Positions 136 to 16,504 of a stretch of DNA of 27,901 bases are shown here, one piece after another (within the stretch, counting starts at the first letter, position 1; each line of letters begins with the position of its first letter). Source of the DNA: a virus; IMG/VR virus record IMGVR_UViG_3300023301_000071, positions 1 to 27,901 of that record; one strand, written 5' to 3'. A program made the translations under genes and the position numbers. Below the pieces are notes generated by a model. The model was given only the letters and a program-made list of their open reading frames with translations. It did no database searches and was not told the DNA's origin.

Positions 136-163
136 TTACCAAGGGCACGAATCGCGTTATAAT
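136..163 (+). promoter_or_regulatory. candidate sigma70-type promoter upstream of the primase gene
   Basis: A perfect TATAAT lies at 158-163 with TTACCA at 136-141, separated by 16 bp. It is the only good promoter-like site between the stop at 121 and the primase start at 285. It does not carry the block shared by the three other promoters of this window. Confidence 0.4.
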
Positions 164-182
164 AAAGCACCCTATGTGCTTT
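164..182 (+). promoter_or_regulatory. short hairpin just after the candidate promoter
   Basis: AAAGCAC and GTGCTTT can form a 7-bp stem around the loop CCTAT. It may be a 5' mRNA hairpin, or a weak terminator of the gene ending at 121. The sequence does not decide between the two. Confidence 0.35.
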
Positions 183-213
183 CGTGGTTGGTAGCGCATA
201 GATGCAGTTGAAA

Positions 214-245
214 GCCCAAGGCCTAAAAACCTTGGGCCTTTCTTT
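214..245 (+). terminator. intrinsic terminator-like hairpin (CCTAAAAA loop) ahead of primase
   Basis: GCCCAAGG (214-221) pairs with CCTTGGGC (230-237) around the loop CCTAAAAA and is followed by CTTTCTTT. Because it lies between the candidate promoter at 136-163 and the primase start at 285, it could terminate upstream transcription or attenuate the primase message. The same loop occurs in the hairpin at 7966. Confidence 0.7.
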
Positions 246-2390: not shown

Positions 2391-2425
2391 TTTTCAGGGG
2401 CAAATAGTGGCAAATAAATTACAAA

Positions 2426-2448
2426 GCAGGTAAAATCTACAGTATAAT
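2426..2448 (+). promoter_or_regulatory. repeated phage promoter, copy 1
   Basis: TATAAT (2443-2448) is preceded by a block AAAATCTACAG that is nearly identical at 6604-6625 and 12093-12114. No shared -35 hexamer is visible. The conserved upstream block may therefore replace it, or bind an activator. A hairpin begins eight bases downstream and the gene at 2493 follows. Confidence 0.65.
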
Positions 2449-2455
2449 ATACTAA

Positions 2456-2473
2456 CAACAAAATTACTTGTTG
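2456..2473 (+). promoter_or_regulatory. 5' leader hairpin, copy 1
   Basis: CAACAA pairs with TTGTTG around the loop AATTAC. Compared with the copies at 6633 and 12121, one A-T pair here replaces a G-C pair, a compensatory change that supports a real RNA stem. The expected transcription start lies at or near the hairpin base. Confidence 0.6.
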
Positions 2474-2492
2474 CTATTACTCGAAAGAACTT

Positions 2493-2720
2493 ATGTCAAG
2501 ACCCCTCTCAATCATTGCCCGGGACATCCAGCAAGCGTGGCCGAAGCCATACTTCGGTGCTGTGCCGTACCTGCGGGCACTATCACAGTTAACTACTATC
2601 AAAGACCACTTTGGTGCGGATGATGCCTACAGCATCGTTCTATATTTTCTCAGCAATGCGGGCAGCTTTCGCGGTGTCAAAGCCAAAGCGCTAAAAGCAG
2701 AACTGCAGGGCCTGCTATGA
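2493..2720 (+). CDS. small conserved-looking phage protein, function unknown
   Basis: A 75-residue protein starting at ATG 2493, preceded by GAAAGAAC (2483-2490), the translation-start context shared with three other genes here. The sequence runs AWPKPYFGAVPYL, then helical segments ending SNAGSFRGVKAKALKAEL, and looks like a compact soluble helical protein. Small early genes of this kind are common in podoviruses, but no function can be assigned. It is the first gene after the repeated promoter and leader hairpin, and its stop overlaps the next start (ATGA at 2717). Confidence 0.75.
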   Translation: MSRPLSIIARDIQQAWPKPYFGAVPYLRALSQLTTIKDHFGADDAYSIVLYFLSNAGSFRGVKAKALKAELQGLL

Positions 2721-2806
2721 AAAAAAACGACTGGAAAGACTACGCCCTTGCTATTTCAGTAGGGCTCACGTTTGCAGTCCTGCTTGTTTGGGAGCTATCA
2801 AAATGA
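2717..2806 (+). CDS. tiny single-pass membrane peptide (29 aa)
   Basis: ATG 2717 overlaps the previous stop as ATGA, and the frame ends at TGA 2804-2806. The peptide has a charged start (MKKNDWKDY), then one hydrophobic span (about residues 10-25, ALAISVGLTFAVLLVW), and a short polar tail. This is the layout of a single-pass inner-membrane peptide. There is no separate ribosome site, so expression would depend on coupling to the upstream gene. The overlap chain and hydrophobic design support it; function is unknown. Confidence 0.55.
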   Translation: MKKNDWKDYALAISVGLTFAVLLVWELSK

Positions 2807-2859
2807 TTTTTGGAATAATCCTAATTGTCTGTGTAATTCTCATCGAAAGTGCGCTATGA
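2803..2859 (+). CDS. tiny hydrophobic peptide (18 aa)
   Basis: The start overlaps the stop of the preceding 29-aa frame (ATGA at 2803) and the stop overlaps the start at 2856 (ATGA). The 18 residues are almost entirely hydrophobic (MIFGIILIVCVILIESAL). It may be a membrane peptide, or only a translational bridge carrying ribosomes to the next gene. Support comes from the coupled overlaps alone. Confidence 0.4.
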   Translation: MIFGIILIVCVILIESAL

Positions 2860-3095
2860 TACAAACACGCATTCAAGGCATCCCCTGCCAAATCCAAGTA
2901 GACCGCTGCTTTGTCCAACGCCCCCTAGGCCGAAGTGCCGACAGCGACTGGGACTGCTACGGGTACTCCGAAATAGACTTCACAGTCTTTGATCGTAAAG
3001 GTTACCCCGCCACGTGGCTAGAGCGTAAGATGACGGACCGGGACACTGCGCGAATTGAAGAACTTATTCTGGACGACAAGGATGAAGACTACTAA
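2856..3095 (+). CDS. small acidic phage protein, function unknown
   Basis: A 79-residue protein. A longer frame opens at 2772, but ATG 2856 is chosen because it sits in an ATGA overlap and the protein then starts cleanly (MIQTRIQGIP). The centre contains two Cys and aromatic residues (SDWDCYGYSEIDFTVFD), and the end is strongly acidic (LILDDKDEDY). It is the last member of the four-gene overlap chain that starts at 2493. I do not recognise the family. Confidence 0.65.
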   Translation: MIQTRIQGIPCQIQVDRCFVQRPLGRSADSDWDCYGYSEIDFTVFDRKGYPATWLERKMTDRDTARIEELILDDKDEDY

Positions 3096-3186
3096 GATTT
3101 CAAACAAACGAAAGACCCAAATGCCAAATAACGAGATAGCTCAAGTGGTTGGGTGGCCAACTGAAATACCACAGGAGTTGACATGA
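3082..3186 (+). CDS. possible small peptide (34 aa, or 21 aa from 3121)
   Basis: This frame runs from ATG 3082 (overlapping the previous gene), or from ATG 3121, to TGA 3184-3186, which overlaps the start of the next gene (ATG 3183). The second start has GAAAGACC upstream (3110-3117), close to the GAAAGA context used elsewhere here. The sequence is polar with no domain. It may be a coupling leader rather than a functional protein. Confidence 0.35.
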   Translation: MKTTKISNKRKTQMPNNEIAQVVGWPTEIPQELT

Positions 3187-3593
3187 CACACAATGAAATA
3201 CTGATGGCCCTAGCCGCGGGTAAGCAGCTAGAGGTGAACTACGGAGCCAACCCGTGGTATGACACCAGCATCGTAGAGGTGCTAGAGCGGGTTGGCTCAG
3301 AGATACAGTTTGGCCGCACCATATACAGGTACCGAGTCAGGCCTGAGCCAAAGCCCGATATTGTGCTGTGGGGGTGCATAGGGGATTGTTGGTCTGAGTT
3401 CTTTGACAAGGACAAACAGGAGCATGACAACGTGCAGGCAATTATCAACGGCGAGACTGGCAAGCTCAAGTCCGTTCGCGTGCTCGGAAAACCGTGCCCC
3501 GAAAAGATGGAGGCTTTCCTGCGCAAGTGCGTGGCTAAATGGGACAAGTACCCCGCCACACAGCACGAAATCAACGAGGTGCTCAAACCATGA
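3183..3593 (+). CDS. phage protein of unknown function (136 aa)
   Basis: The start at 3183 has AGGAG at 3173-3177, a good ribosome site. The protein begins with MTHNEILMALAAGKQLEVNYG and carries a mixed sheet-like middle part ending in RYRVRPEPKP. A Cys pair follows (LWGCIGDCW), then a helical C-terminus with two further Cys. The opening resembles small phage proteins that start with a short helix and a substrate-like sheet, but the family is not identified. The stop overlaps the next start (ATGA at 3590), which continues the coupled arrangement of this early block. Confidence 0.75.
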   Translation: MTHNEILMALAAGKQLEVNYGANPWYDTSIVEVLERVGSEIQFGRTIYRYRVRPEPKPDIVLWGCIGDCWSEFFDKDKQEHDNVQAIINGETGKLKSVRVLGKPCPEKMEAFLRKCVAKWDKYPATQHEINEVLKP

Positions 3594-3811
3594 CACTCTT
3601 AGAAGAGACACGTCTGCACATCGCAAATATAAATTCGACCCTAATCAGAACGCGGCGCACACTGACCACATCCCGCTTACTGATCGCCCTGCTTTCCGAG
3701 AACGAGCGCCTCACACGCATCGTTAATGCCACGGCATCCAAGCCCATGCAGCGTGCGGCTGGGGGCGAGGACGAGGAAGTATGTGACACCCGTTTCTACA
3801 ACAACGACTGA
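3590..3811 (+). CDS. small helical phage protein, function unknown (73 aa)
   Basis: An upstream in-frame ATG exists at 3539, but 3590 overlaps the previous stop (ATGA) and gives a natural N-terminus, MTLLEETRLHIANINSTL. The first 45 residues form one long basic amphipathic helix (RTRRTLTTSRLLIALLSENERL). The tail is acidic (GGEDEEV). This suggests a short coiled-coil or nucleic-acid-binding peptide, but nothing more specific can be supported. Confidence 0.6.
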   Translation: MTLLEETRLHIANINSTLIRTRRTLTTSRLLIALLSENERLTRIVNATASKPMQRAAGGEDEEVCDTRFYNND

Positions 3812-3848
3812 CTATGACCTCAGCCGCTTGCTGCAAAGGAGATTGAAA

Positions 3849-4079
3849 ATGGATTGGATACCTGTAACCACTATGTTGCCCCCACGAGCCACACCCGTAC
3901 TCGTAACGCTCAAACCAAAGACCAAGCGGTCAGAGCGTGAGGTTGCTGTAGGAGTCTACTGGACACCTGGCAAAGGCCATGACTTTGCAGGATGCGGCTG
4001 GAGTGTAGGTGGCGAAGACGTTGAGGTAATTGCTTGGCGACCCGCCTATGCACCTTATGACGGTAACGCAGCAACATAG
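3849..4079 (+). CDS. DUF551-family phage protein
   Basis: A 76-residue protein starting at ATG 3849 with AAGGAG at 3836-3841. A longer frame from 3726 is rejected because it would overlap the preceding gene and lacks a ribosome site. The sequence MDWIPVTTMLPPRATPVLVTL is the hallmark opening of DUF551 (W-I-P-V, x, x, x-L-P, then V-L-V). It ends with VEVIAWRPAYAPY, matching the usual Trp-rich end of that family. DUF551 proteins are frequent in phages and prophages; their function is unknown. Confidence 0.82.
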   Translation: MDWIPVTTMLPPRATPVLVTLKPKTKRSEREVAVGVYWTPGKGHDFAGCGWSVGGEDVEVIAWRPAYAPYDGNAAT

Positions 4080-4109
4080 CCCGGATGGGCTTAACAAAGG
4101 AGATTGATG

Positions 4110-4583
4110 ATGACATTCATTGCCTCGCCTTACGAACCAACACACGCTGTGTGTATAGACAACCAAACTGAATTTGATGCCCTGCCCGTAGTCGGTGGGG
4201 TACGGCAATGCCCAACGGCGAAGTACGCTGCAACTATAAAGTTTGGCCCCAACTGTTGGTTTGGCCCCAACTGTTGGTTTTACCCTGCCTGCGTGTTTGG
4301 GGCAGGCTGCGAATTCGCCTACAGATGCATGTTTTCGATAAGCTGCAGTTTTGGGCCTGCCTGCAGGTTCGGTCTTGGTTGCAAGTTCGGCCCACACTGC
4401 CACTTTAGGGCTGGATGCGACTTTGGGTTTGGGTGCGGGTTTAATTCGTCTTGTCGCTTTGACTCTAAATGTCGGTTTGGATATGACTGCACTTGGCAGC
4501 CTGACTGCGCCATTAGCGGCGGCGAATTTGAAGTCGAATGCGATTTCGGCCCCGGCTTGGGCCTTTTACCTGTACGAGCCTAG
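4110..4583 (+). CDS. Cys/Phe hexapeptide-repeat protein, predicted left-handed beta-helix
   Basis: TTG 4104 and ATG 4107 are alternative starts; ATG 4110 is favoured by its 7-base spacing from AGGAG (4098-4102). The 157-residue protein has a short N-terminal domain (1-44). Fifteen uninterrupted hexapeptides follow, with Cys at every sixth residue from 49 to 133 and Phe four residues before each Cys (45, 51 ... 123; Trp at 129). Typical units are CWFGPN and CRFGLG. The C-x-[F]-[G]-x-x spacing fits a left-handed beta-helix of about five three-sided coils with Phe and Cys buried. The gene ending at 121 encodes a close relative. The function is unknown; scaffolding, inhibitor or DNA-mimic roles are only guesses. 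Confidence 0.8.
   Translation: MTFIASPYEPTHAVCIDNQTEFDALPVVGGVRQCPTAKYAATIKFGPNCWFGPNCWFYPACVFGAGCEFAYRCMFSISCSFGPACRFGLGCKFGPHCHFRAGCDFGFGCGFNSSCRFDSKCRFGYDCTWQPDCAISGGEFEVECDFGPGLGLLPVRA
4242..4277 (+). repeat. 18-bp perfect tandem duplication in the hexapeptide-repeat gene
   Basis: Two identical 18-bp copies (4242-4259, 4260-4277) encode two identical hexapeptides, FGPNCW. The exact identity points to recent unit duplication. Confidence 0.9.
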
Positions 4584-4631
4584 CAATGGCAAGCATTGGG
4601 CTGCGGGGATGCAAACTTTGATGGAGAAAAC

Positions 4632-4841
4632 ATGACACAAGCAAGCCGCATAAAAAGACTCGCTGACAACTACCGCGCCGCAGACGCGCCCAGCGTATCG
4701 CACCGACACCGCGAAGCACTTCACGAAGCAATCGACAAGCTGGATGATTGCCTAAGCATTGCACGATCCAACATAGCCGACATGCTTCGCAAAATAGATG
4801 CCTTGCAAGCTGAGAACGCAGCAATGCAAGGGGGTGATTGA
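4632..4841 (+). CDS. small coiled-coil phage protein, function unknown (69 aa)
   Basis: ATG 4632 has GGAG at 4623-4626; an upstream in-frame ATG at 4596 has no ribosome site. The protein is almost wholly helical and ends in heptad-like spacing (IARSNIADMLRKIDALQAEN), which suggests a short parallel coiled coil. It lies between the hexapeptide-repeat gene and a small Cys-His protein and shares their strand and tight spacing. No family is recognised. Confidence 0.65.
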   Translation: MTQASRIKRLADNYRAADAPSVSHRHREALHEAIDKLDDCLSIARSNIADMLRKIDALQAENAAMQGGD

Positions 4842-4842
4842 T

Positions 4843-5040
4843 ATGGGTGAATATGCACACGACGCAATGCGCCAAGAAATTAAGGGCGAACACGGTTTTG
4901 ACATTGGCGAGTATGACGACACCCCGGCTAAGAAGTTTGTGAAGCCGGTTTACAAGCGGGTGAAGTGCCCGCAGTGCGAGGCTAAGCCGAAAGAGGCAGG
5001 GCTACGTGACCATTTGCGTGACAAACACGGCGTGATTTAA
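4843..5040 (+). CDS. small zinc-finger-like phage protein (65 aa)
   Basis: ATG 4843 follows the previous stop by one base, with GGGGG upstream. The N-terminal 40 residues are acidic and polar. The end carries CPQC, then H-L-R-D-K-H: two Cys and two His spaced as a C2H2-type zinc finger (C-x2-C-x11-H-x4-H). This would allow nucleic-acid or protein binding. One finger alone in a 65-residue protein suggests a regulatory accessory factor; the target is unknown. Confidence 0.7.
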   Translation: MGEYAHDAMRQEIKGEHGFDIGEYDDTPAKKFVKPVYKRVKCPQCEAKPKEAGLRDHLRDKHGVI

Positions 5041-5050
5041 GGAGAAATAA

Positions 5051-5233
5051 ATGACTAAAGATGAATTTGATTTTGATACGTGGTTTGACAATTTGTGCAA
5101 CCTAGTGCAGGACAAATGCGGGGTTGAGTTTAGCGACAAAGACTCAGTGCGTGGAGACTACGAAGCGGGCAAAGACTGCTTCGATGTTGCCGATGAAATC
5201 GTGGCCGAGTATGGGGAAGGAGAAACAAAATGA
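5051..5233 (+). CDS. small acidic protein, function unknown (60 aa)
   Basis: The start at 5051 has AAGGAG at 5039-5044. The protein is strongly acidic, with many Asp and Glu and a few aromatic residues (DEFDFDTWFDNL), one feature often seen in phage inhibitors and DNA mimics. That role is not supported further here. The stop overlaps the next gene's ATG (ATGA at 5230). Confidence 0.65.
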   Translation: MTKDEFDFDTWFDNLCNLVQDKCGVEFSDKDSVRGDYEAGKDCFDVADEIVAEYGEGETK

Positions 5234-5724
5234 CTGACAAAGAGGTGATGCGGCAGGCGCTTGCTGCGCTGCAAAGTAATTGCCCTGAATTTGTAAGCGG
5301 CCACCGTGATCCCGTGGATAGCTTCGACGGGGTGCTTGTTGCCGCTGCTATCACAGCCCTGCAAGCCGCTATTGATGCGCCAGCGCAAGAGCCAATAGGC
5401 TATTTGTGGGAGCGCCCAGGTTACTGCGGAGAGCTAAGCACAGACAAAGGACCGAAAGTTGGGTGGACAATAACGCCACTGCATGCCCATTCACAGCCAC
5501 CGCCTACACAAGCGCAGCCAGTGGTGTGGCGGCTACTCAATGTAGTGATTGGATACCGAGGGGTTTTTAGGACCGAAGAAGGTGCGAGGCACATGGCGAA
5601 ACTACACGACAAATTAGGATTTTTTCAAAACGTAGTCACGCCACTTTACCCAGCCCCACAACCAGCACAGCCCGAGTCGCACCCCGCTAAACAAAAAACA
5701 CAACACGGAGAAAACGATGTTTAA
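5230..5724 (+). CDS. phage protein with N-terminal helical repeat and Pro-rich tail (164 aa)
   Basis: The start at 5230 overlaps the previous stop as ATGA and has GGAG at 5219-5222. The N-terminus MTDKEVMRQALAALQ and the later VVTPLYPAPQPAQ match a widespread but uncharacterised phage layout: a short E-A-L-x-A-L helix, a central linker, then a P-L-Y-x-A-P segment. The C-terminal 25 residues are rich in Pro, Gln, His and Lys and are probably disordered. It overlaps the ligase start by eight bases. No function is known to me. Confidence 0.68.
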   Translation: MTDKEVMRQALAALQSNCPEFVSGHRDPVDSFDGVLVAAAITALQAAIDAPAQEPIGYLWERPGYCGELSTDKGPKVGWTITPLHAHSQPPPTQAQPVVWRLLNVVIGYRGVFRTEEGARHMAKLHDKLGFFQNVVTPLYPAPQPAQPESHPAKQKTQHGENDV

Positions 5725-6586
5725 ACCAATGCTAGCAGCAACTGTCACGGACCGTGTCAAACTGCGCTTCCCCCTCATGGCGTCACCAAAGCTTGACGGC
5801 ATCCGCTGTGTTATCCTTGATGGCAAGGTGCTCAGCCGCAGCCTAAAGCCCATACGCAACAAGTTCATACAGGAGCGGTTGCGTGCTTTACCGAATCTCG
5901 ACGGCGAGCTGATCGTAGGGAGCGCTGTTGGGGAAGACGTCTTCAATCGCACTACCCGTGGAGTTATGCCCGCAGATGGTCGTCCTGAGTTTACATACCA
6001 CGTGTTTGATACACTTGACGACCTGTGTCTGCCCTTCCACGTAAGGCTAACTAAAGCCCATGCAAGTTGGCACTCAGACGTCAAAGTAGTTCCCCACACA
6101 ACTGTCTGGACATTAAACGACCTTGGTAAGTTTGAGGCGGAAATGCTTGAAGCAGGTTATGAGGGCGTGATGCTACGGCACCCCGAAGCCTTGTACAAAA
6201 TGGGCCGTGCAACTGCCACAGAAGGTAGCCTTTGGAAACTTAAGCAATTCGCTGACGGGGAGATACTCGTAACTGCGGTGCGCGAGGGCCTGACTAATGG
6301 TAACAAGCCCACAAAAGACGCGCTCGGCGAAACTGTCAGATCAACACATCAAGAAAACATGTTGCCGAGCAACAAAGTGGGTACGATCATTGGAACAGAC
6401 ATCAAAACAGGGCAAACCCTCGAGATTTCCCCCGGCAAAATGACGCATGTAGATCGTGAGCGGTACTGGGCCAACGCTAGCTTAATCGTGGGTAAAATTG
6501 CGAAGTACAAAGCCTTTGTTTATGGTAGCATCGGCGCCCCACGATTTGCAACGTTTCAAGCGTTCCGGGATCCTACAGATATGTGA
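5717..6586 (+). CDS. ATP-dependent DNA ligase
   Basis: This 289-residue enzyme would seal nicks during phage replication through an adenylated lysine. The nucleotidyltransferase motifs are clear: motif I KLDG with Lys25, DGELIV (62-67), FNRTTRG (76-82), YHVFD (94-98), EGVMLR (149-154) and LWKLK (172-176). The remaining about 100 residues form an OB-type domain. The length is that of small phage ligases, somewhat shorter than T7 ligase. The start at 5717 overlaps the upstream gene by eight bases and has GGAG nearby. It ends the early operon; a repeated promoter follows it. Confidence 0.93.
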   Translation: MFKPMLAATVTDRVKLRFPLMASPKLDGIRCVILDGKVLSRSLKPIRNKFIQERLRALPNLDGELIVGSAVGEDVFNRTTRGVMPADGRPEFTYHVFDTLDDLCLPFHVRLTKAHASWHSDVKVVPHTTVWTLNDLGKFEAEMLEAGYEGVMLRHPEALYKMGRATATEGSLWKLKQFADGEILVTAVREGLTNGNKPTKDALGETVRSTHQENMLPSNKVGTIIGTDIKTGQTLEISPGKMTHVDRERYWANASLIVGKIAKYKAFVYGSIGAPRFATFQAFRDPTDM

Positions 6587-6603
6587 CAAATAAACTTCTC
6601 CAA

Positions 6604-6625
6604 GCAGTAAAATATGCAGTATAAT
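6604..6625 (+). promoter_or_regulatory. repeated phage promoter, copy 2
   Basis: TATAAT at 6620-6625 is preceded by AAAATATGCAG, nearly identical to the blocks at 2426 and 12093. It sits in the 83-base gap after the ligase gene and drives the operon starting at 6670. Confidence 0.65.
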
Positions 6626-6632
6626 TAACGTA

Positions 6633-6652
6633 GCAGCAAAATTACTTGCTGC
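6633..6652 (+). promoter_or_regulatory. 5' leader hairpin, copy 2
   Basis: GCAGCAA pairs with TTGCTGC (7 bp) around the loop AATTAC, the same loop as copy 1. The terminal G-C pair replaces the A-T pair of copy 3, another compensatory change. Confidence 0.65.
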
Positions 6653-6669
6653 CTAATTTGAAAGAACCT

Positions 6670-6831
6670 ATGTTAGTAACTTTTACCAAAGAAGAAGTGC
6701 TTAAAATTGTGCTTGATTTTGCCCAAGCAGAGCTTGACCTTCAGCTTAACAAAGCTGAAGTAGACGGGTACTCTAGTTTTACGTCAGTTACGCTCAGCTA
6801 CGTGGCTGAAGATACCGAAAGCACAGAATGA
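6670..6831 (+). CDS. small acidic phage protein, function unknown (53 aa)
   Basis: ATG 6670 is preceded by GAAAGAAC (6660-6667), the shared start context; the in-frame ATG at 6646 lies inside the leader hairpin and is rejected. The protein is a helix (EEVLKIVLDFAQAELDLQL) followed by a short sheet-like stretch and an acidic tail. It is the first gene of the second operon, and its stop overlaps the next start (ATGA at 6828). Confidence 0.65.
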   Translation: MLVTFTKEEVLKIVLDFAQAELDLQLNKAEVDGYSSFTSVTLSYVAEDTESTE

Positions 6832-7217
6832 CATTGCAGACACTTACGCTAGGCCAAGCTATTGACAGCTTGTACGAAGCCCGCGCAGCAAGGCTTGTGA
6901 AAGCCAAAGAAGTCAAAGACTTGCAAGTACTCGAAGCACAAGCCAAAGTAGTTGTGCTCACGATGCTCAAAGAAACAGGCCTTGCAAAAGCGTCCGGGAT
7001 GCTTGCTACTGCAGGCATCACAACAGACGACATCCCCTTCATCAAAGACTGGGATGCGGTTCATGAGTACATCAAAATCAATGACAGGTTCGACTTGCTC
7101 CAACGCCGTATTGGCGTAGTTGCGTGGCGTGACCTGTACAAAGACGGCATCCTCGTGCCGGGAACTGAGGCTGCGGTCGATACAGACCTTTCACTAACCA
7201 AGTCAACAAGGAACTAA
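6828..7217 (+). CDS. conserved-looking phage protein, function unknown (129 aa)
   Basis: The start overlaps the previous stop (ATGA). The first 60 residues are helical and basic (YEARAARLVKAKEVKDLQVLE). The centre reads IPFIKDWDAVHEYIK, and the end has RRIGVVAWRDLYKDG, followed by GILVPGTE and LTKSTRN. I have the impression of a widespread phage family found next to single-strand-binding or polymerase genes, but cannot name it. Its place directly before the Cys-rich 233-aa protein and the DNA polymerase suggests a replication accessory role, which is inference. Confidence 0.7.
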   Translation: MTLQTLTLGQAIDSLYEARAARLVKAKEVKDLQVLEAQAKVVVLTMLKETGLAKASGMLATAGITTDDIPFIKDWDAVHEYIKINDRFDLLQRRIGVVAWRDLYKDGILVPGTEAAVDTDLSLTKSTRN

Positions 7218-7218
7218 T

Positions 7219-7920
7219 ATGACTAAGACCAAAGAACCTGTAGCTACGCCTCAAGAGCCTACAACTGCGATTATGTCAATCCAAGAGCAAATTGCTCAAC
7301 AGCTTGCTCGCCAAAACGAAACTGCTGCGGGCCTCCGGTCTAATGGCAGCTACATCGGTTTCAAAAACGCGCAGCTCAAAGTGGACGGCATCACCATCCC
7401 AGCTAATACACTTGATGTGCGGGTGCTTGCGGTTTTGAGTGAGCGGGCATGGTACTCAAAAGACTTTGATGCAGATGCGGTACAAGTACCGGACTGCTAC
7501 GCACTTGATGCCACTGTACCGCATCTGGCGTCGTCAAACCCGCAAGCAGATAACTGCGGTGACTGCCCCCATAATAAGTGGGGCTCTGCAACACGTGGTA
7601 AAGGCAAAGCTTGCCGTGAAGCTGCTCGTGTGATTGTCATCCCCGCAAACGTGCCGCTTGCATCTGCTCAAATGTACACAGCCAAAGTGCCTGTAACTTC
7701 GTTGTCTACTGTCACAAGCTTCACAAGCCGCTGTGGGCAAGCAGGCAAGCTGATGGGGGAGTTTGTGACTAAGCTAAGCGTTGTGGAAGACAAAAAGACC
7801 TTTTTCAAGGTGCATTTGACGCCCGTTGAGGTTACGCCTGAAATGGATATGCCCGCACTACTCAAAGCGCAGAACGCCGCCTATGATCTTGCCATGACGC
7901 CGTATCCCACCATCGAGTAA
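7219..7920 (+). CDS. Cys-cluster phage protein, possible replication/ssDNA-binding factor
   Basis: A 233-residue protein starting one base after the previous stop, with AAGGA upstream. The N-terminal 40 residues are polar and Gln-rich. Mid-protein, a cluster reads CGDCPHNKWGS, then GKGKACRE, and with an earlier Cys (VPDCYAL) it could bind zinc. The second half is sheet-rich (MYTAKVPVTSLSTVTSF), compatible with an OB-like fold. Proteins with a C-x-x-C, N-x-W-G-S and G-K-G-K-A-C arrangement occur in phage replication modules and are normally left uncharacterised. A single-strand-binding role is suggested only by position before the polymerase and by the fold impression. Confidence 0.72.
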   Translation: MTKTKEPVATPQEPTTAIMSIQEQIAQQLARQNETAAGLRSNGSYIGFKNAQLKVDGITIPANTLDVRVLAVLSERAWYSKDFDADAVQVPDCYALDATVPHLASSNPQADNCGDCPHNKWGSATRGKGKACREAARVIVIPANVPLASAQMYTAKVPVTSLSTVTSFTSRCGQAGKLMGEFVTKLSVVEDKKTFFKVHLTPVEVTPEMDMPALLKAQNAAYDLAMTPYPTIE

Positions 7921-7965
7921 ATGAGTCTCCCTTCCCGGCCTACTTTGCAGTTGCCGCCGGGCTTA

Positions 7966-7996
7966 GCCCTACGCCTAAAAACGTAGGGCCTTTTTC
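7966..7996 (+). terminator. intrinsic terminator-like hairpin (CCTAAAAA loop) ahead of DNA polymerase
   Basis: GCCCTACG (7966-7973) pairs with CGTAGGGC (7982-7989) around CCTAAAAA, followed by CTTTTTC. A weaker hairpin (CCCGGC 7934-7939 with GCCGGG 7956-7961) lies just upstream. The terminator ends only 12 bases before the polymerase start, so read-through would set polymerase levels. Confidence 0.72.
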
Positions 7997-8008
7997 TTGA
8001 AAGAACTT

Positions 8009-9802
8009 ATGTTAGTAGCTATTGACTTTGAGTCCCACGGGATTGAAGACCGGCCGAAGTACCCCCCAGTTCCAGTTGGGGTGGCGATTTACAAAGAAGG
8101 CGGCGAGCCTACGTATTATGCATGGGGGCACCCTACTGAGAATAACTGCACGCAAGCTACTGCGGTTAAAACACTCAAACAAGCAATCGACGACCCCGAC
8201 AACGAACTAATCTTTCACAATGCCCCGTTTGACTGTGCAATTCTAGAAGAGCGCCTCGGCATCGCGGTGCCTTGGGATCGTGTGCACGATACTATGGTTC
8301 TTGCTTTTTTGCAAGACCCGTTTGGCGAGCTAGCCCTAAAGCCGCTTGCAGCACAATGGCTTCAAATGCCACCAGCTGAGCGCGATGCAGTCAAAGAATG
8401 GCTTATTAAGCATGGTGCTTGCCGGGACACAAAAGGCTGGGGCGCGTATATCTGCATGGCCCCGGGTGCGCTTGTGGGTGCGTACGCAATAGGTGACGTG
8501 GTTCGCACCTTGCAGCTGTTTAAGCTGCTTCATGAGTATGCTACCACCACCGGCATGCTACCTGCGTATCGGCGTGAGATTGCGCTTATGCCCCATGTGC
8601 TTAAAATGGAGCAGCGTGGGCTGCGACTTGATGGCGAGCTGCTAACTAAAGACGTGGACTACTACTTCACAGCGCTTGATGAGCTCGACCAGTCCATTTG
8701 CGAGCTGCTCGGCGCGCAAGTTGATGTAGATAGCAGCGCGCAGCTCGCAGATGCGATCGAAGCGGCTGGAATGTCAAAAGGATTCGCTACAACCCCAACA
8801 GGTTTGCGCAGCACAGCCAAGGATTCTTTGATTGGTGCCATCAATAACCCAACGCTGCTAGGCCATTTACTTGTGCGGGGCTCTGTTGCCACTTGTCTTC
8901 GCACGTTTATGACTTCGTGGCTTGCACAGTACAACGAGCACGGCCGGTTGTTTGTTAAGTGGAATCTTGTGCGCAATTATAGCGACACGGGTGCGCGTAC
9001 TGGGCGAATCAGCAGCTCGCCCAATCTCCAAAACATACCTGTTGAGTGGGAGGGACTACGCGCACAGCTTGACAAAATTGGCTACGTGCTGCCGTTCCCG
9101 TTGCCACAAGTTCGCAAGTACATCATCCCCGATACCGGGAAAGTGTTTCTTGACCGAGACTACTCGGCACAAGAACTCCGGCTGCTTACTCACTTTGCCC
9201 CCGGCAAGTTATTGAAAGAGCTCGAAGCAGACCCTACCGCAGACATTCATCAAATTGCAGCCAAGATTGCGGGGATCAGCCGTAAAGAAGCCAAGACCCT
9301 TGCGTTTGCTGTTTTGTATGGCGCCGGCGGGGGCAAAATTGCTGAGTCGCTCCACATGACCGTACAAGAGGCAACGCGTGTAAAAGAGCAGTATCTCAAG
9401 GCGCTCCCTGAAATTAAGCTGCTTACCAAGTCTGTGCAAGATGCGGGCAAAAATCGTAGCTTTATTACTACGCTTGGCGGCCGTCAGTACTACGCACAAA
9501 AACCTGCAGTGGTAAAAGGCATGTGGAAAAGTTTTGAATACAAACTTACCAATTACTTGATCCAAGGTTCCGCAGCAGATGCCACAAAGCAAGCTATGCT
9601 GGCCTACTGCCAAAAAACGAAGCATGGGCAATTGGTACTCACAGTTCATGACGAGCTGGTTATTCAGGTCGATACGGAGCATGCCGAAACAGAAGCAGCC
9701 CTGCTTGAAGCATGTATGAATGGCAGCTTCCAAGATGTTCTCAAGTACAAAGTTATTTCAACCGGCTCGCAGGGGCTTAATTTTAGTGAGGCTAGTAAAT
9801 GA
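8009..9802 (+). CDS. family A DNA polymerase with 3'-5' exonuclease domain
   Basis: The replicative polymerase of the phage, 597 residues. ATG 8009 is chosen over TTG 7997 because the bases between them are the shared GAAAGAAC start context (7999-8006). The exonuclease domain shows IDFESH (5-10), HNAPFD (70-75) and YAIGD (159-163). The polymerase domain shows TGRISSSPNLQNIP (331-344), motif A DRDYSAQELR (382-391), motif B from Arg425 and Lys429 to Tyr437-Gly438, and motif C HDE (547-549). Both active sites appear complete. It has no 5'-nuclease domain, as in T7-type polymerases. Its stop overlaps the start of the nuclease gene (ATGA at 9799). Confidence 0.95.
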   Translation: MLVAIDFESHGIEDRPKYPPVPVGVAIYKEGGEPTYYAWGHPTENNCTQATAVKTLKQAIDDPDNELIFHNAPFDCAILEERLGIAVPWDRVHDTMVLAFLQDPFGELALKPLAAQWLQMPPAERDAVKEWLIKHGACRDTKGWGAYICMAPGALVGAYAIGDVVRTLQLFKLLHEYATTTGMLPAYRREIALMPHVLKMEQRGLRLDGELLTKDVDYYFTALDELDQSICELLGAQVDVDSSAQLADAIEAAGMSKGFATTPTGLRSTAKDSLIGAINNPTLLGHLLVRGSVATCLRTFMTSWLAQYNEHGRLFVKWNLVRNYSDTGARTGRISSSPNLQNIPVEWEGLRAQLDKIGYVLPFPLPQVRKYIIPDTGKVFLDRDYSAQELRLLTHFAPGKLLKELEADPTADIHQIAAKIAGISRKEAKTLAFAVLYGAGGGKIAESLHMTVQEATRVKEQYLKALPEIKLLTKSVQDAGKNRSFITTLGGRQYYAQKPAVVKGMWKSFEYKLTNYLIQGSAADATKQAMLAYCQKTKHGQLVLTVHDELVIQVDTEHAETEAALLEACMNGSFQDVLKYKVISTGSQGLNFSEASK

Positions 9803-10464
9803 CAGCACCGGCTACATTCAAAGACCCGTGGGGGTACAGCAAGCTTGAGACACTGGAAAAGTGTCCTCAAAAGTTCAAGTATCAGTTTATCGAGAAGTTA
9901 CCGCAGCCCGGCTCACAGGCTATGGAACGAGGTTCACGGATGCACGAATCCATCGAGTCGTACCTCAACGGCTGGGTAAAAGAGCTGATTCCAGAGTGCC
10001 AGAGCTTCCAGCAAGCTATTGATAGCTTAAAGGGCGAAAAGTTTGTTGCAGAGCAAGCTATTGGCCTTGACAAAAACTGGGCGAAGCTTCCTGATTGGTT
10101 TCATAAGGATACATGGATTCGTGCCAAAGCTGATGCCATGTATATCCATGGCGACGTGCTTGTGGTCGTAGACTTTAAGTCTGGAAAGTATCGTATCCCA
10201 TCAACGGACCAAGTTGAGCTGTACGCAATTGTAGGCGGGGCGATATATCCGGAAGTCAAGCAGGTGACTGCTGAGTACTGGTACCTAGACACTGGTGAAG
10301 TTTACTCAAAGGACTACACCCAAGCAGAGCTTTTTGAGCTTCGCAAAAAGTTCGAGAAGCGTGTAGTTCCGATGTACACCAACACAAATTGGGCGCCGGA
10401 GCCGTCTATGGAATGCAGGTGGTGCCCGTATTCCAAGACCAAAGGCGGGAAGTGTCAGTACTAG
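9799..10464 (+). CDS. PD-(D/E)XK nuclease, RecB/Cas4-like, four-Cys pattern
   Basis: A 221-residue exonuclease-like protein. The core shows Cys22 in EKCPQKFKY, His49, Asp112 in ADAMY, then Asp125 and Lys127 in VDFKSGK, and Gln138 and Tyr142, the order of the PDDEXK_1 family. The C-terminus has Cys206, Cys209 and Cys219 (ECRWCPYSK...GKCQY). One early Cys plus three late Cys is the layout that holds an iron-sulfur cluster in Cas4 and AddB. It overlaps the polymerase stop (ATGA) and the VRR-NUC start by 13 bases. A role in DNA end processing or recombination is likely; the cluster is a prediction. Confidence 0.88.
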   Translation: MTAPATFKDPWGYSKLETLEKCPQKFKYQFIEKLPQPGSQAMERGSRMHESIESYLNGWVKELIPECQSFQQAIDSLKGEKFVAEQAIGLDKNWAKLPDWFHKDTWIRAKADAMYIHGDVLVVVDFKSGKYRIPSTDQVELYAIVGGAIYPEVKQVTAEYWYLDTGEVYSKDYTQAELFELRKKFEKRVVPMYTNTNWAPEPSMECRWCPYSKTKGGKCQY

Positions 10465-10766
10465 AATCTGCGATCGAGCAAGCCTGCCGGGTTGAAGCTT
10501 CCGCGCAGGCTTGCGTTTTGCTCAAAATACAAGGGACTAAAGGCTGGCCCGATCGGATTCTGCTAGCCCCAAATGGGCAGCTTACGTTCATAGAGTTTAA
10601 GCGGCCCCGGGAAGCTTTACGGCCCCTACAGGAACATATACAATGTCTACTAACCCAAATGAACTTTCAAGCACTCCGGATCGACTCAGTCCAAGCGTTC
10701 AAGCAATGCTTGCAGGCTTTGAAAGTCCAACCTGGAAACCGCACGGGTACCAAGAGCGCGGAATAG
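10452..10766 (+). CDS. VRR-NUC domain nuclease
   Basis: A 104-residue protein of the VRR-NUC (PF08774) family of small phage nucleases. GTG 10452 is chosen: it follows a purine-rich AAAGGCGGG stretch and yields MSVLESAIEQAC, a typical opening with Glu5. An ATG further upstream (10389) would overlap the preceding gene by 76 bases. The core shows GWPD (31-34), IEFK (47-50) and LQEHIQCL (59-66), the metal-binding and backbone-cutting pattern of the family. Such genes commonly lie beside polymerase and SNF2 helicase genes in phages. It overlaps the helicase frame for 124 bases. Confidence 0.88.
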   Translation: MSVLESAIEQACRVEASAQACVLLKIQGTKGWPDRILLAPNGQLTFIEFKRPREALRPLQEHIQCLLTQMNFQALRIDSVQAFKQCLQALKVQPGNRTGTKSAE

Positions 10767-12091
10767 ACTGGCTTACACACAGGATTTCAGCCGCACTGTT
10801 TCTAGCGCCCGGCATGGGCAAAACAAGTATTGCGTTGGCCGCAATCAATGTCCTAAAAGCTGAGGGGCTTGCTAAGCGGATACTTATTCTCGCACCCCTA
10901 ACTGTCTGCATTACTACATGGGACACAGAGCCAAAGAAGTGGAAGCAGTTCCAAGAGCTAAAGATCGGGCTTGCGCATGGCCCTGACAAGGCGCGCATCT
11001 TGAACGACCCCTACTACGACATTGTGGTTATGAACTACGACGGAATTAGCTGGGCTGTACCATTGCTAGCTGCGGGCCACAAGTTTGACGTGCTAATTTG
11101 CGACGAGCTTACTAAGCTCAAGCATGCAAGCTCAAAGCGTTTCAAAACAATCAAGCCGCTACTCCCAACGTTCAAGTTCAAGTGGGGCTTAACGGCTAGC
11201 CCTGCAGCCAATGGGCTTATAGACTTATTTGGGCAGGTCTTTGCCCTTGACTGTGGTGCACGGCTGGGGCGGTATATTACTCATTTTCGTGCAAAGTATT
11301 TCCACCAAGAACCTTGGGACGCATACCGGCATTTTATCACCCCCGAAAAATCGCTTGAGCTAACAGACAAGCTTGCAGACTTGGCCATGTACATGGACCC
11401 TAAAGATCATCTCGTGCTCCCCGGCTTGTTTGATGTCATTCGCCCCGTGAAGCTTAAAGACTTGGCACAATACAAGTTTTTGCAAGATGAGTACATTCTT
11501 AAGCTGCAAGACACCACAATCACAGCAGCTAATGCAGGAGTGCTTACTAGTAAGCTTAGACAGTTTACTGGTGGGGCAATATACACAGAAGGCCGCGACT
11601 GGCAGGAGCTGCACAATGATAAAATTGAAGAGCTGCAAGAGCTAGTAGCAGAGCTGAACGGTGAGCCCTTGATTGTAGCTTATGAGTTTAATCATGAGTG
11701 CGAGCGCTTGCTCAAAGCTTTTCCAGAAGCTAGGGCAATTCGTGGGGGCCTTAGCACCAAAGAAACACAAGACATCGTGGCCGCTTGGAATGCGGGCAGC
11801 GTGCAAGTACTACTGATCCAGCCCCAAGCAGGTGCGCATGGCATTAACTTGCAAGCAGGCGGCTCGGCAATAGCTTGGTACAGCCTGACCTACAACCTCG
11901 ACAACTATATGCAGCTCATCGCGAGAATATACCGGCAGGGCCAGCCTAATATCGTTAGGAACTACCTACTTGTGGCGCAGGGCACAATAGACGAGGCGCT
12001 TGTTGAAGTTCTTGCAGACAAAACTGCCACGCAAGATGCTATGTTTTTGACCCTAAAAAATTACGCCTTATGCGGGAGAAATAAACTGTAA
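10643..12091 (+). CDS. SNF2-type superfamily 2 helicase/ATPase
   Basis: A 482-residue ATP-driven DNA translocase or helicase. The motifs run in order: KPHGYQERGIDWL (Q-like, 32-44), Walker A APGMGKT (55-61), LAPLTV (83-88), motif II DELT (154-157), motif III TASP (184-187), GAHGINL (397-403) and motif VI QLIARIYRQGQ (424-434). The start at 10643 has AGGAA eight bases upstream; ATG 10706 (Met22) is a possible later start and would reduce the overlap with the VRR-NUC gene. Phage SNF2 proteins of this type belong to the replication/recombination module. A repeated promoter begins just after its stop. Confidence 0.92.
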   Translation: MSTNPNELSSTPDRLSPSVQAMLAGFESPTWKPHGYQERGIDWLTHRISAALFLAPGMGKTSIALAAINVLKAEGLAKRILILAPLTVCITTWDTEPKKWKQFQELKIGLAHGPDKARILNDPYYDIVVMNYDGISWAVPLLAAGHKFDVLICDELTKLKHASSKRFKTIKPLLPTFKFKWGLTASPAANGLIDLFGQVFALDCGARLGRYITHFRAKYFHQEPWDAYRHFITPEKSLELTDKLADLAMYMDPKDHLVLPGLFDVIRPVKLKDLAQYKFLQDEYILKLQDTTITAANAGVLTSKLRQFTGGAIYTEGRDWQELHNDKIEELQELVAELNGEPLIVAYEFNHECERLLKAFPEARAIRGGLSTKETQDIVAAWNAGSVQVLLIQPQAGAHGINLQAGGSAIAWYSLTYNLDNYMQLIARIYRQGQPNIVRNYLLVAQGTIDEALVEVLADKTATQDAMFLTLKNYALCGRNKL

Positions 12092-12092
12092 A

Positions 12093-12114
12093 ACAGCAAA
12101 ATCTGCAGTATAAT
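12093..12114 (+). promoter_or_regulatory. repeated phage promoter, copy 3
   Basis: TATAAT at 12109-12114 follows AAAATCTGCAG, the same block as at 2426 and 6604. It starts right after the helicase stop and precedes the third leader hairpin. Confidence 0.65.
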
Positions 12115-12120
12115 TACTTA

Positions 12121-12140
12121 ACAGCAAACTTACTTGCTGT
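12121..12140 (+). promoter_or_regulatory. 5' leader hairpin, copy 3
   Basis: ACAGCAA pairs with TTGCTGT (7 bp) around the loop ACTTAC. The loop differs from the other copies by one base, and the stem differs only by compensated pairs. Confidence 0.65.
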
Positions 12141-12165
12141 GTTTAACCAAACTTTGAAAGACCCT

Positions 12166-12672
12166 ATGTCCAAACTCTCCATGTCTGCGATCATCCTTGC
12201 CTACAACGCCCTTGCTGTTGCGCAGGGCAAAGAAGAAGTTTCCAGCTTCAAAAACCTTCAAGCTGCGCGTGCAGCCCTTACAACCCTCGAAAGTAACACC
12301 ATGTCCGAAGAAAACCAAGCCCCGCATGATTCCATCGACGCACCACTGATTCCTGATTCTGAAAACACAAGTGGCCCCAAGTACAACACCACCGGCAAGC
12401 GCGGCCCAACTCAGGGTATCGGCGCCTTCTGCAAAAGTATGATTGCCGACGGCAAAACCAATACTGAAATCTTGGCAGAAGTTGCAACGCAGTTTCCTAC
12501 TGCCAAGACCACGGCCAACTGTGTCGCGTACTACCGCGCCAAAATGAAATTGGCAGCTGCGGCAGCGCCAGCTGAAGACGAAGCAGAAGCAGAAGCAGAA
12601 GCAGAAGCAGAAGCAGAAGCACAAGCACAAGCAGAAGCAGAAGACAGCGCACTAGCTACAGACGAAGCATAA
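12166..12672 (+). CDS. phage protein with (EA)n acidic tail, function unknown
   Basis: A 168-residue protein. ATG 12166 has GAAAGACC (12156-12163) upstream; the earlier in-frame ATG at 12139 sits in the leader hairpin and is rejected. The N-terminal 45 residues form one helical unit (AYNALAVAQGKEEV, then FKNLQAARAALTTLE). A polar linker leads to a second domain (about 92-133, GIGAFCKSMIADGKTNTEIL to ANCVAYYRAKMK) that looks like a small helix-turn-helix fold. The tail is a run of Glu-Ala dipeptides from a GAAGCA repeat. It is the only gene between promoter copy 3 and the terminator at 12691, so it is probably strongly expressed. Function unknown; the fold suggests DNA or RNA contact. Confidence 0.75.
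   Translation: MSKLSMSAIILAYNALAVAQGKEEVSSFKNLQAARAALTTLESNTMSEENQAPHDSIDAPLIPDSENTSGPKYNTTGKRGPTQGIGAFCKSMIADGKTNTEILAEVATQFPTAKTTANCVAYYRAKMKLAAAAAPAEDEAEAEAEAEAEAEAQAQAEAEDSALATDEA
12580..12642 (+). repeat. GAAGCA hexanucleotide repeat
   Basis: About ten GAAGCA-type units with a few CAAGCA variants encode Glu-Ala and Gln-Ala dipeptides. Such runs change length by slippage without breaking the frame. Confidence 0.9.
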
Positions 12673-12690: not shown

Positions 12691-12718
12691 AAAAGAGGAG
12701 CTTAATTGCTCCTCTTTT
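12691..12718 (+). terminator. intrinsic terminator
   Basis: AAAAGAGGAGC pairs with GCTCCTCTTTT (11 bp) around the loop TTAATT, ending in a T run. It closes the single-gene unit at 12166-12672. The symmetric A and T flanks mean it could work in both directions. Confidence 0.85.
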
Positions 12719-14456: not shown

Positions 14457-14866
14457 CTACTGTGATGCTAGACATTGCCGCTTGTCTAGCACAACGGGCA
14501 ACGTGCGGCAAGCTCGCAGTTGGGTGCGTTTTGGTTGACCGGCAGGGTCGAATTATCGGCAGTGGGTACAACGGAGTGCCCCGTGGTATGACACACTGTA
14601 CTGATGTGGTATGCGCAGGATTCTCAGCCCCAAAAGGCTCTGATGCTTGCATTGCGGTTCATGCCGAACAGAACGCACTTTTGGTGTGCAGAGACCCTGA
14701 GCAAATCGAAACATGCTACACTACGCATGCCCCCTGCCTTCGGTGCACTAAGATGCTCCTAAATACTAGCTGCAAAGCTATTATTTATACAAATGCAGAC
14801 TTTGAGGCACCTGCAAAAGCCCTTTGGCTTGCCGGGAAGCGCTTTTGGCACCAAGTGGCCGCGTAA
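14432..14866 (+). CDS. dCMP deaminase
   Basis: A 144-residue zinc enzyme converting dCMP to dUMP. The catalytic HAE (77-79) and PCLRC (101-105) supply the zinc ligands and the proton-shuttle Glu; an N-terminal part (CGKLAVGCVLV, SGYNGVPRG) matches phage and bacterial dCMP deaminases. ATG 14432 or ATG 14441 may be the start; neither has a strong ribosome site. It is the last gene of the + strand block and ends directly before the second 71-bp inverted-repeat element. Together with the dCMP-specific synthase homologue it controls the fate of dCMP. Confidence 0.92.
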   Translation: MVVMRPDLATVMLDIAACLAQRATCGKLAVGCVLVDRQGRIIGSGYNGVPRGMTHCTDVVCAGFSAPKGSDACIAVHAEQNALLVCRDPEQIETCYTTHAPCLRCTKMLLNTSCKAIIYTNADFEAPAKALWLAGKRFWHQVAA

Positions 14867-14937
14867 CTGGTTGTCCACGGCCGATCGTTTAAAGGTTCGT
14901 GTACATACGTATACGACTGCTCGGTGTGGACAACCAG
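14867..14937. repeat. 71-bp inverted-repeat element, copy B, at convergent junction
   Basis: CTGGTTGTCCAC (14867-14878) pairs perfectly with GTGGACAACCAG (14926-14937); inner CCGA and TCGG can extend the stem. It starts on the base after the deaminase stop and ends eight bases before the last codon of the - strand holin gene. Position suggests a two-way transcription barrier. The arms contain TTGTCCAC, close to a DnaA box, so an origin-like role is an alternative. Confidence 0.82.
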
Positions 14938-14944
14938 CTTTAAG

Positions 14945-16470: not shown

Positions 16471-16504
16471 TTCTTACCTTTCTGCTTGTCAGTTTATGCA
16501 GTCT

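Follow-up and report, generated by a model that had tools for sequence, protein, structure and literature searches.

The window (the whole 27,901-nucleotide stretch analysed, from IMG/VR virus record IMGVR_UViG_3300023301_000071) carries a replication module on its + strand that encodes a VapE-type primase, a ligase, a DNA polymerase, an exonuclease and an SNF2-type helicase. Long genes on the - strand, which fall outside this analysis, follow after about position 16500. Repeats of the type ctgcatatttggccctga are found at the left end (1–120), and an ORF at 4104–4583 contains many short F-G-x-x-C-like repeats. Three cassettes made up of TATAAT, a hairpin and a GAAAGA-ATG start were found in the replication module (sites B, C and D, Table 1), all at the positions reported in a sequence-only reading of this DNA. 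In each, TATAAT is followed after 6–7 bases by a 6–7 bp stem with a 6-base loop and then by GAAAGA-N4-ATG. The promoters of the three sites combine a perfect -10 element with an AAATAAA block that precedes it by about 30 nt (at 2412–2418, 6588–6594 and 12079–12085; the block also occurs in most promoters of the related phages L008 and L057). They have no clear -35, which makes their polymerase requirements uncertain, and the start may be set by an activator or another polymerase.

A fourth TATAAT with a 5′ hairpin, absent from the sequence-only reading, lies at 158–201 before the primase gene (site A). In L008 the corresponding hairpin is CTATGCGC...GCGCATGG, in which matching pairs are changed from U-G to C-G and from U-A to U-G relative to the window. 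The leader of the primase gene (175–250) reads GTGGTTGG...GATGCAGTTG followed by a terminator-like hairpin, an order resembled in L008 (2776–2860) and L057 (about 690–800), and is possibly an attenuator.

Table 1. Positions of the -10 elements, predicted hairpins and start contexts in the window. Shuffles are dinucleotide shuffles, in 32-nt folds.
Feature	Site	Position	Strand	Remarks
-10 element TATAAT	A	158–163	+	TTACCA-16-TATAAT, 10 of 12
Longer hairpin near predicted +1, CTATGUGC...GCGCAUAG	A	172–201	+	-13.0 kcal/mol, p 0.003
Terminator-like hairpin	between A and primase start	214–237	+	
AAATAAA block	B	2412–2418	+	about 31 nt upstream of TATAAT; possible UP-element-like part
-10 element TATAAT	B (after primase)	2443–2448	+	
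Predicted 5′-terminal hairpin CAACAA-AATTAC-TTGTTG	B	2456–2473	+	1 nt from predicted +1; -4.4 kcal/mol, p 0.003 vs shuffles
GAAAGA (Shine-Dalgarno-like)	B	2483–2488	+	before ATG 2493
-10 element TATAAT	C (after DNA ligase)	6620–6625	+	
Predicted 5′-terminal hairpin GCAGCAA-AATTAC-TTGCTGC	C	6633–6652	+	1 nt from predicted +1; -10.1 kcal/mol, p 0.007 vs shuffles
GAAAGA	C	6660–6665	+	before ATG 6670
-10 element TATAAT	D (after SNF2-type helicase)	12109–12114	+	
Predicted 5′-terminal hairpin ACAGCAA-ACTTAC-TTGCTGT	D	12121–12140	+	starts at predicted +1; -8.1 kcal/mol, p 0.020 vs shuffles
GAAAGA	D	12156–12161	+	before ATG 12166

When the full leaders (66–75 nt) were folded, only that of site C folded clearly better than shuffled sequences. 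A search of the window with Rfam 15 at E values up to 1 gave no covariance-model match, and no curated RNA family could be assigned. Viral contigs scanned for the cassette in its exact form gave only chance matches, a nucleotide search of phage records gave no match, and a scan of genome contigs for hosts or prophages produced one distant match.

Other candidate RNA elements lie nearby. A leader and terminator directly before the DNA polymerase gene (7924–7997) resembles RF02278 (Betaproteobacteria_toxic_sRNA; in a search with 121 bases, E 0.003 and 24 bits against a gathering threshold of 50). Its resemblance to RF02837 (anti-hemB) is weak. Comparable leaders carrying CTT(N)GCAGTNGCC were found near the polymerase gene in seven related contigs (L003, L004, L008, L072, L075, L081 and L090). 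The window leader is a possible phage-borne relative of the RF02278 group, and this weak match to a betaproteobacterial sRNA hints at Burkholderiales-like hosts. Two similar elements of 75–80 nt (CTGGTTGTCCACGGCCGATCG...GTGTGG..ACCAG) are located at the ends of + strand units (2318–2397 and 14866–14942), with relatives in L008 near 15354 (- strand) and in L057 near 2843. Neither of the two in the window had an Rfam match.

Relatives of the window were found by searching with the DNA polymerase, helicase, primase and ORF6828, and gene order is kept in the resulting contig set. The comparison of the same gene junctions covered about 15 related contigs together with three named phage genomes, with site C defined as the ligase/ORF6828 junction and site D as the position after the SNF2 helicase; the TATAAT promoter is kept at both. 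By folding, a hairpin was present directly after the promoter at 13 of 14 (site C) and 8 of 10 (site D) syntenic promoters. Under a strict rule, requiring at least 6 uninterrupted pairs starting 0–1 nt from the predicted +1, the counts were 10/14 (p 1e-12) and 7/10 (p 4e-9) compared with 3.2% of random positions. Synteny and the presence of TATAAT decided which sites entered this count, irrespective of any hairpin, and the p-values overstate independence because some of the sites are related to each other. The 5-bp row of this test is uninformative as it forces an exact stem length, and two distant relatives with no TATAAT at the junction (L083 and L084) were left out of the counts. In a wider curated set, hairpins were found at 22 of 30 sites, compared with 6 of 112 other TATAAT sequences and 3.4% of random positions (Fisher 4e-14, a value that is less clean because the 30 sites include some found through their hairpins).

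Among the GAAAGA-ATG starts with an upstream TATAAT in the window and the L008 and L057 phages, 10 of 11 had a hairpin. Across all the sites compared, a hairpin was absent from those of L086 and L087, from that of a distant relative (L082) and from an additional GAAAGA promoter of the L057 phage (L062:18048, - strand). Promoters without a hairpin were also found in the more distant L011. In L086 (4081) and L087 (4044) the site D promoters have an ATG at the predicted +1, which suggests that these mRNAs are leaderless. No syntenic site that keeps a leader was found to combine a broken stem with an intact promoter and loop. Hairpins orthologous to that of site B were located at 4928 in L008 and 2946 in L057.

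Gene order is also partly shared with Stenotrophomonas phage AXL3 (NC_071036), Pseudoxanthomonas phage PW916 (OL960029) and the metagenome-derived ctUtU524 (MW202621). In all three, hairpins were found at the predicted +1 or one base after it at the corresponding junctions, and their hairpin promoters are mostly of the form TTTACA-17-(-10). Other promoters of ctUtU524 and AXL3 were without a hairpin.

Transcription from sigma70 promoters usually starts at the seventh base after TATAAT, and the +1 was assumed from the position of the -10 element in this way at all sites. The stem started 0–1 nt from the predicted RNA 5′ end at nearly all of 31 sites, and folding was better than that of shuffled sequences (p<=0.05) at 24 of the 31. 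When possible stem starts were counted for each base after TATAAT, the number of sites peaked at bases 7–8. The comparison shows a fixed register of the hairpin to the -10 element, and with the start as predicted the hairpins have the features of 5′-terminal stem-loops, namely a stem of at least about 6 bp located about 0–4 nt from the 5′ end. This supports the earlier proposal that the hairpin would lie at the 5′ end of several transcripts of the replication module.

The sequence-only reading had argued from the three copies in the window that the stems covary. Exchanging the 3′ arms among the three window hairpins left 19 of 20 pairs intact on average, because of G-U pairing, and covariation is not significant from these copies. 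It is shown instead by the relatives, in which the stems are rewritten and still paired. At the same junctions the stems read GCAGCAA in the window, CAAGCGGC in L075, TCACCAGA in L004 and TTACAAC in L005, CAAGCGGT in L072 and CAAGTGGTA in L003 (two G-U pairs each), and AGCAAC in L013, CGTAGC in L073 and TACGTGCC in L081, while CAAGCGG, GTAACGT, CGGTCG and others also occur, and all stay paired. A U-G pair in L072 is replaced by C-G in L075, and two neighbouring pairs are changed on both sides between L005 and L013. In a set of 25 hairpins, 167 of 175 pair cells were kept (8 of the cells being G-U), compared with a mean of 82.8 and a maximum of 113 when the 3′ arms were shuffled 5000 times. The count was ungapped and anchored on the loop, and DNA alignments (A3 and A4) were unused as the arms were misplaced or gapped. 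As the hairpins were entered by hand where one was seen and many rows are related, the result is not a strict probability. Stems of different subclades could not be aligned as sequence. On these comparisons the predicted hairpin structure is shown to be conserved independently of its sequence, and the rewritten stems that stay paired support the earlier suggestion of selection on RNA shape.

The loop and the upstream sequence fared differently. The loop is near-constant in the window (AATTAC, AATTAC and ACTTAC), as had been noted, but relatives have AATAAC, AATAAG, AATGGTT, ATTT, AATGCC or GATCCT, and a constant loop is therefore not a feature of the group. Both stems and loops differ between sites of one genome in L075, L005, L080 and L008, which fits recognition of shape rather than sequence. 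The idea that a constant loop binds a protein is not supported, as loops differ both between relatives and between sites of one genome. The subclade that unites the window with L008 and L057 has stems and loops that are alike (mostly CAGCAA-AATNNN-TTGCTG), and recognition by sequence is conceivable there. An AAAAT-x-T-x-CAG block described upstream of the -10 element was not conserved in relatives, except for a frequent (T)GCAG before TATAAT.

We consider it rather probable that the hairpins are 5′-terminal mRNA-stabilising stem-loops of the ompA/papA type, placed systematically on the host-RNA-polymerase promoters of this phage lineage. A host-type (sigma70 -10) promoter would set the start so that the nascent mRNA opens with 0–1 unpaired nt and then a 6–9 bp stem-loop, and an exposed GAAAGA resembling a Shine-Dalgarno sequence would come shortly after it, ahead of the ATG. 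The paired 5′ end would hinder removal of the 5′ pyrophosphate by RppH and 5′-end-dependent attack by RNase E, and replication-module transcripts would thereby live longer. The hairpin would also prevent base pairing between the first nucleotides of the RNA and the ribosome-binding site. We infer all three of the transcription start, the protection from decay and the early timing. The combination of free sequence and a paired 5′ end with 0–1 free nt is best fitted by 5′ protection, and mRNA stabilisation, proposed previously, is probably the likeliest of the roles considered.

Several known systems offer parallels. In T7, the phi10 leader transcript opens straight into a hairpin that is encoded beside the promoter and formed by part of it, and the RNA polymerase is the phage's own. 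Here too the RNA would begin directly in a hairpin, but the -10 element looks sigma70-type. Studies of E. coli mRNAs (Emory 1992, Bouvet and Belasco 1992, as cited in PMC7509114 and PMC3997798) describe 5′-terminal stem-loops that stabilise mRNA, and a paired 5′ end with 0–1 free nt that slows decay dependent on RppH and RNase E; B. subtilis RppH requires at least two unpaired 5′ nucleotides (PMC3997798). As described there for ompA and papA (PMC7509114, PMC3997798), the stem-loop is located at the 5′ end or a few nt from it and precedes a ribosome-binding site that is exposed, but here it is present at most strong promoters of a phage lineage, and stabilisation is presumed. The proposed protection from RppH and RNase E is modelled on other bacteria, and the RNases of the host may differ. 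The leader hairpin of T4 gene 32 is likewise a phage leader hairpin and, as cited in PMC8948821, stabilises its mRNA and has a fixed CUUCGG loop, whereas here both stems and loops vary. The extended start-associated sequences (ESAS) of cluster K mycobacteriophages, inverted repeats with a conserved sequence of 17 bp next to the likewise conserved 13 bp start-associated sequence (PMC3203893), also precede several gene starts in one phage group, but here the position is tied to the -10 element and the stem sequence is not conserved across relatives, and the hairpins were not assigned to that class.

A role in translation, in which the hairpin stops the transcript start from pairing with the ribosome-binding site and provides a uniform, structure-insulated leader, appears fairly unlikely. 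The hairpin is just upstream of the Shine-Dalgarno-like site at the first gene of each unit, and centroid folds leave GAAAGA and the ATG largely unpaired, but an insulator could sit anywhere in the leader and would not by itself explain a stem that starts exactly at the predicted +1. Insulation is compatible with 5′ protection and could be a second benefit.

A signal for antitermination or for a phage or host RNA-binding protein (put-like or boxB-like), allowing read-through of terminators within operons, was retained as a rival because terminator-like hairpins are present inside the units (214–237 and 7966–7989), and we regard it as unlikely. A further hairpin at 12691–12718 was listed on the - strand, and its symmetrical stem is also readable on the + strand. 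Such a signal is favoured by the similar loops in the subclade of the window and by the example of HK022 putL, a structured RNA that opens an early phage transcript and is encoded immediately after the early promoter PL (PMC9378689), but sites within one genome differ. The put RNA of HK022 is about 70 nt with two stem-loops, has copies related in sequence and binds RNA polymerase (PMC9378689), whereas here there is a single hairpin of 16–25 nt with stem and loop sequence free to differ, and the hairpins were not classed with it. It is similarly doubtful that they form a sequence-free structural cap marking phage transcripts, as a general shield at almost every early promoter, or else as a minimal RNA signal modifying the elongating host polymerase to pass in-operon terminators.

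That the palindrome is an operator in double-stranded DNA, overlapping the start site and bound by a dimeric repressor, is very unlikely and strongly disfavoured. The dyad of two 6–9 bp arms at about +1 to +20 would suit an operator, and the half-site CAGCAA is found repeatedly in the window, L008 and L057. However, half-sites differ within L075 (CAAGCGGC and GTAGCGT), L005 (TTACAAC and GTAGCA), L080 and L008, the arm spacing varies from 4 to 8 nt, and the palindrome has no copy elsewhere in the window. G-U pairs (L003, L072, L081 and site C of AXL3) also break DNA symmetry and keep RNA pairing. Operators of one genome would be expected to share their half-site sequence and to have strict Watson-Crick symmetry, and the hairpins were not assigned to that class. 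That the three cassettes are recent duplicates similar by mere common descent, as their likeness over about 70 bp including the GAAAGA context might indicate, is hardly credible, since the stems at orthologous sites of relatives are unrelated yet paired, an outcome not expected from descent in the absence of selection on pairing, and these compensatory changes refute it for the clade.

Protection by a 5′ stem-loop is a known device, and its probable use here is unusually consistent: at nearly every strong early promoter of this phage and its relatives the mRNA is predicted to open straight into a short hairpin. We found no account of this promoter-hairpin design in these phages in the literature searched, which left out most subscription journals. 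In a phage lineage with isolated members among the relatives (AXL3 and PW916), the placing of promoters and the structure of the RNA appear to have been selected together, with transcripts opening in a hairpin as the outcome. If confirmed, shielding of mRNA 5′ ends from host decay would be a systematic, lineage-wide phage design and not a feature of single mRNAs, and phage promoters and their start sites could be located by a simple sequence rule.
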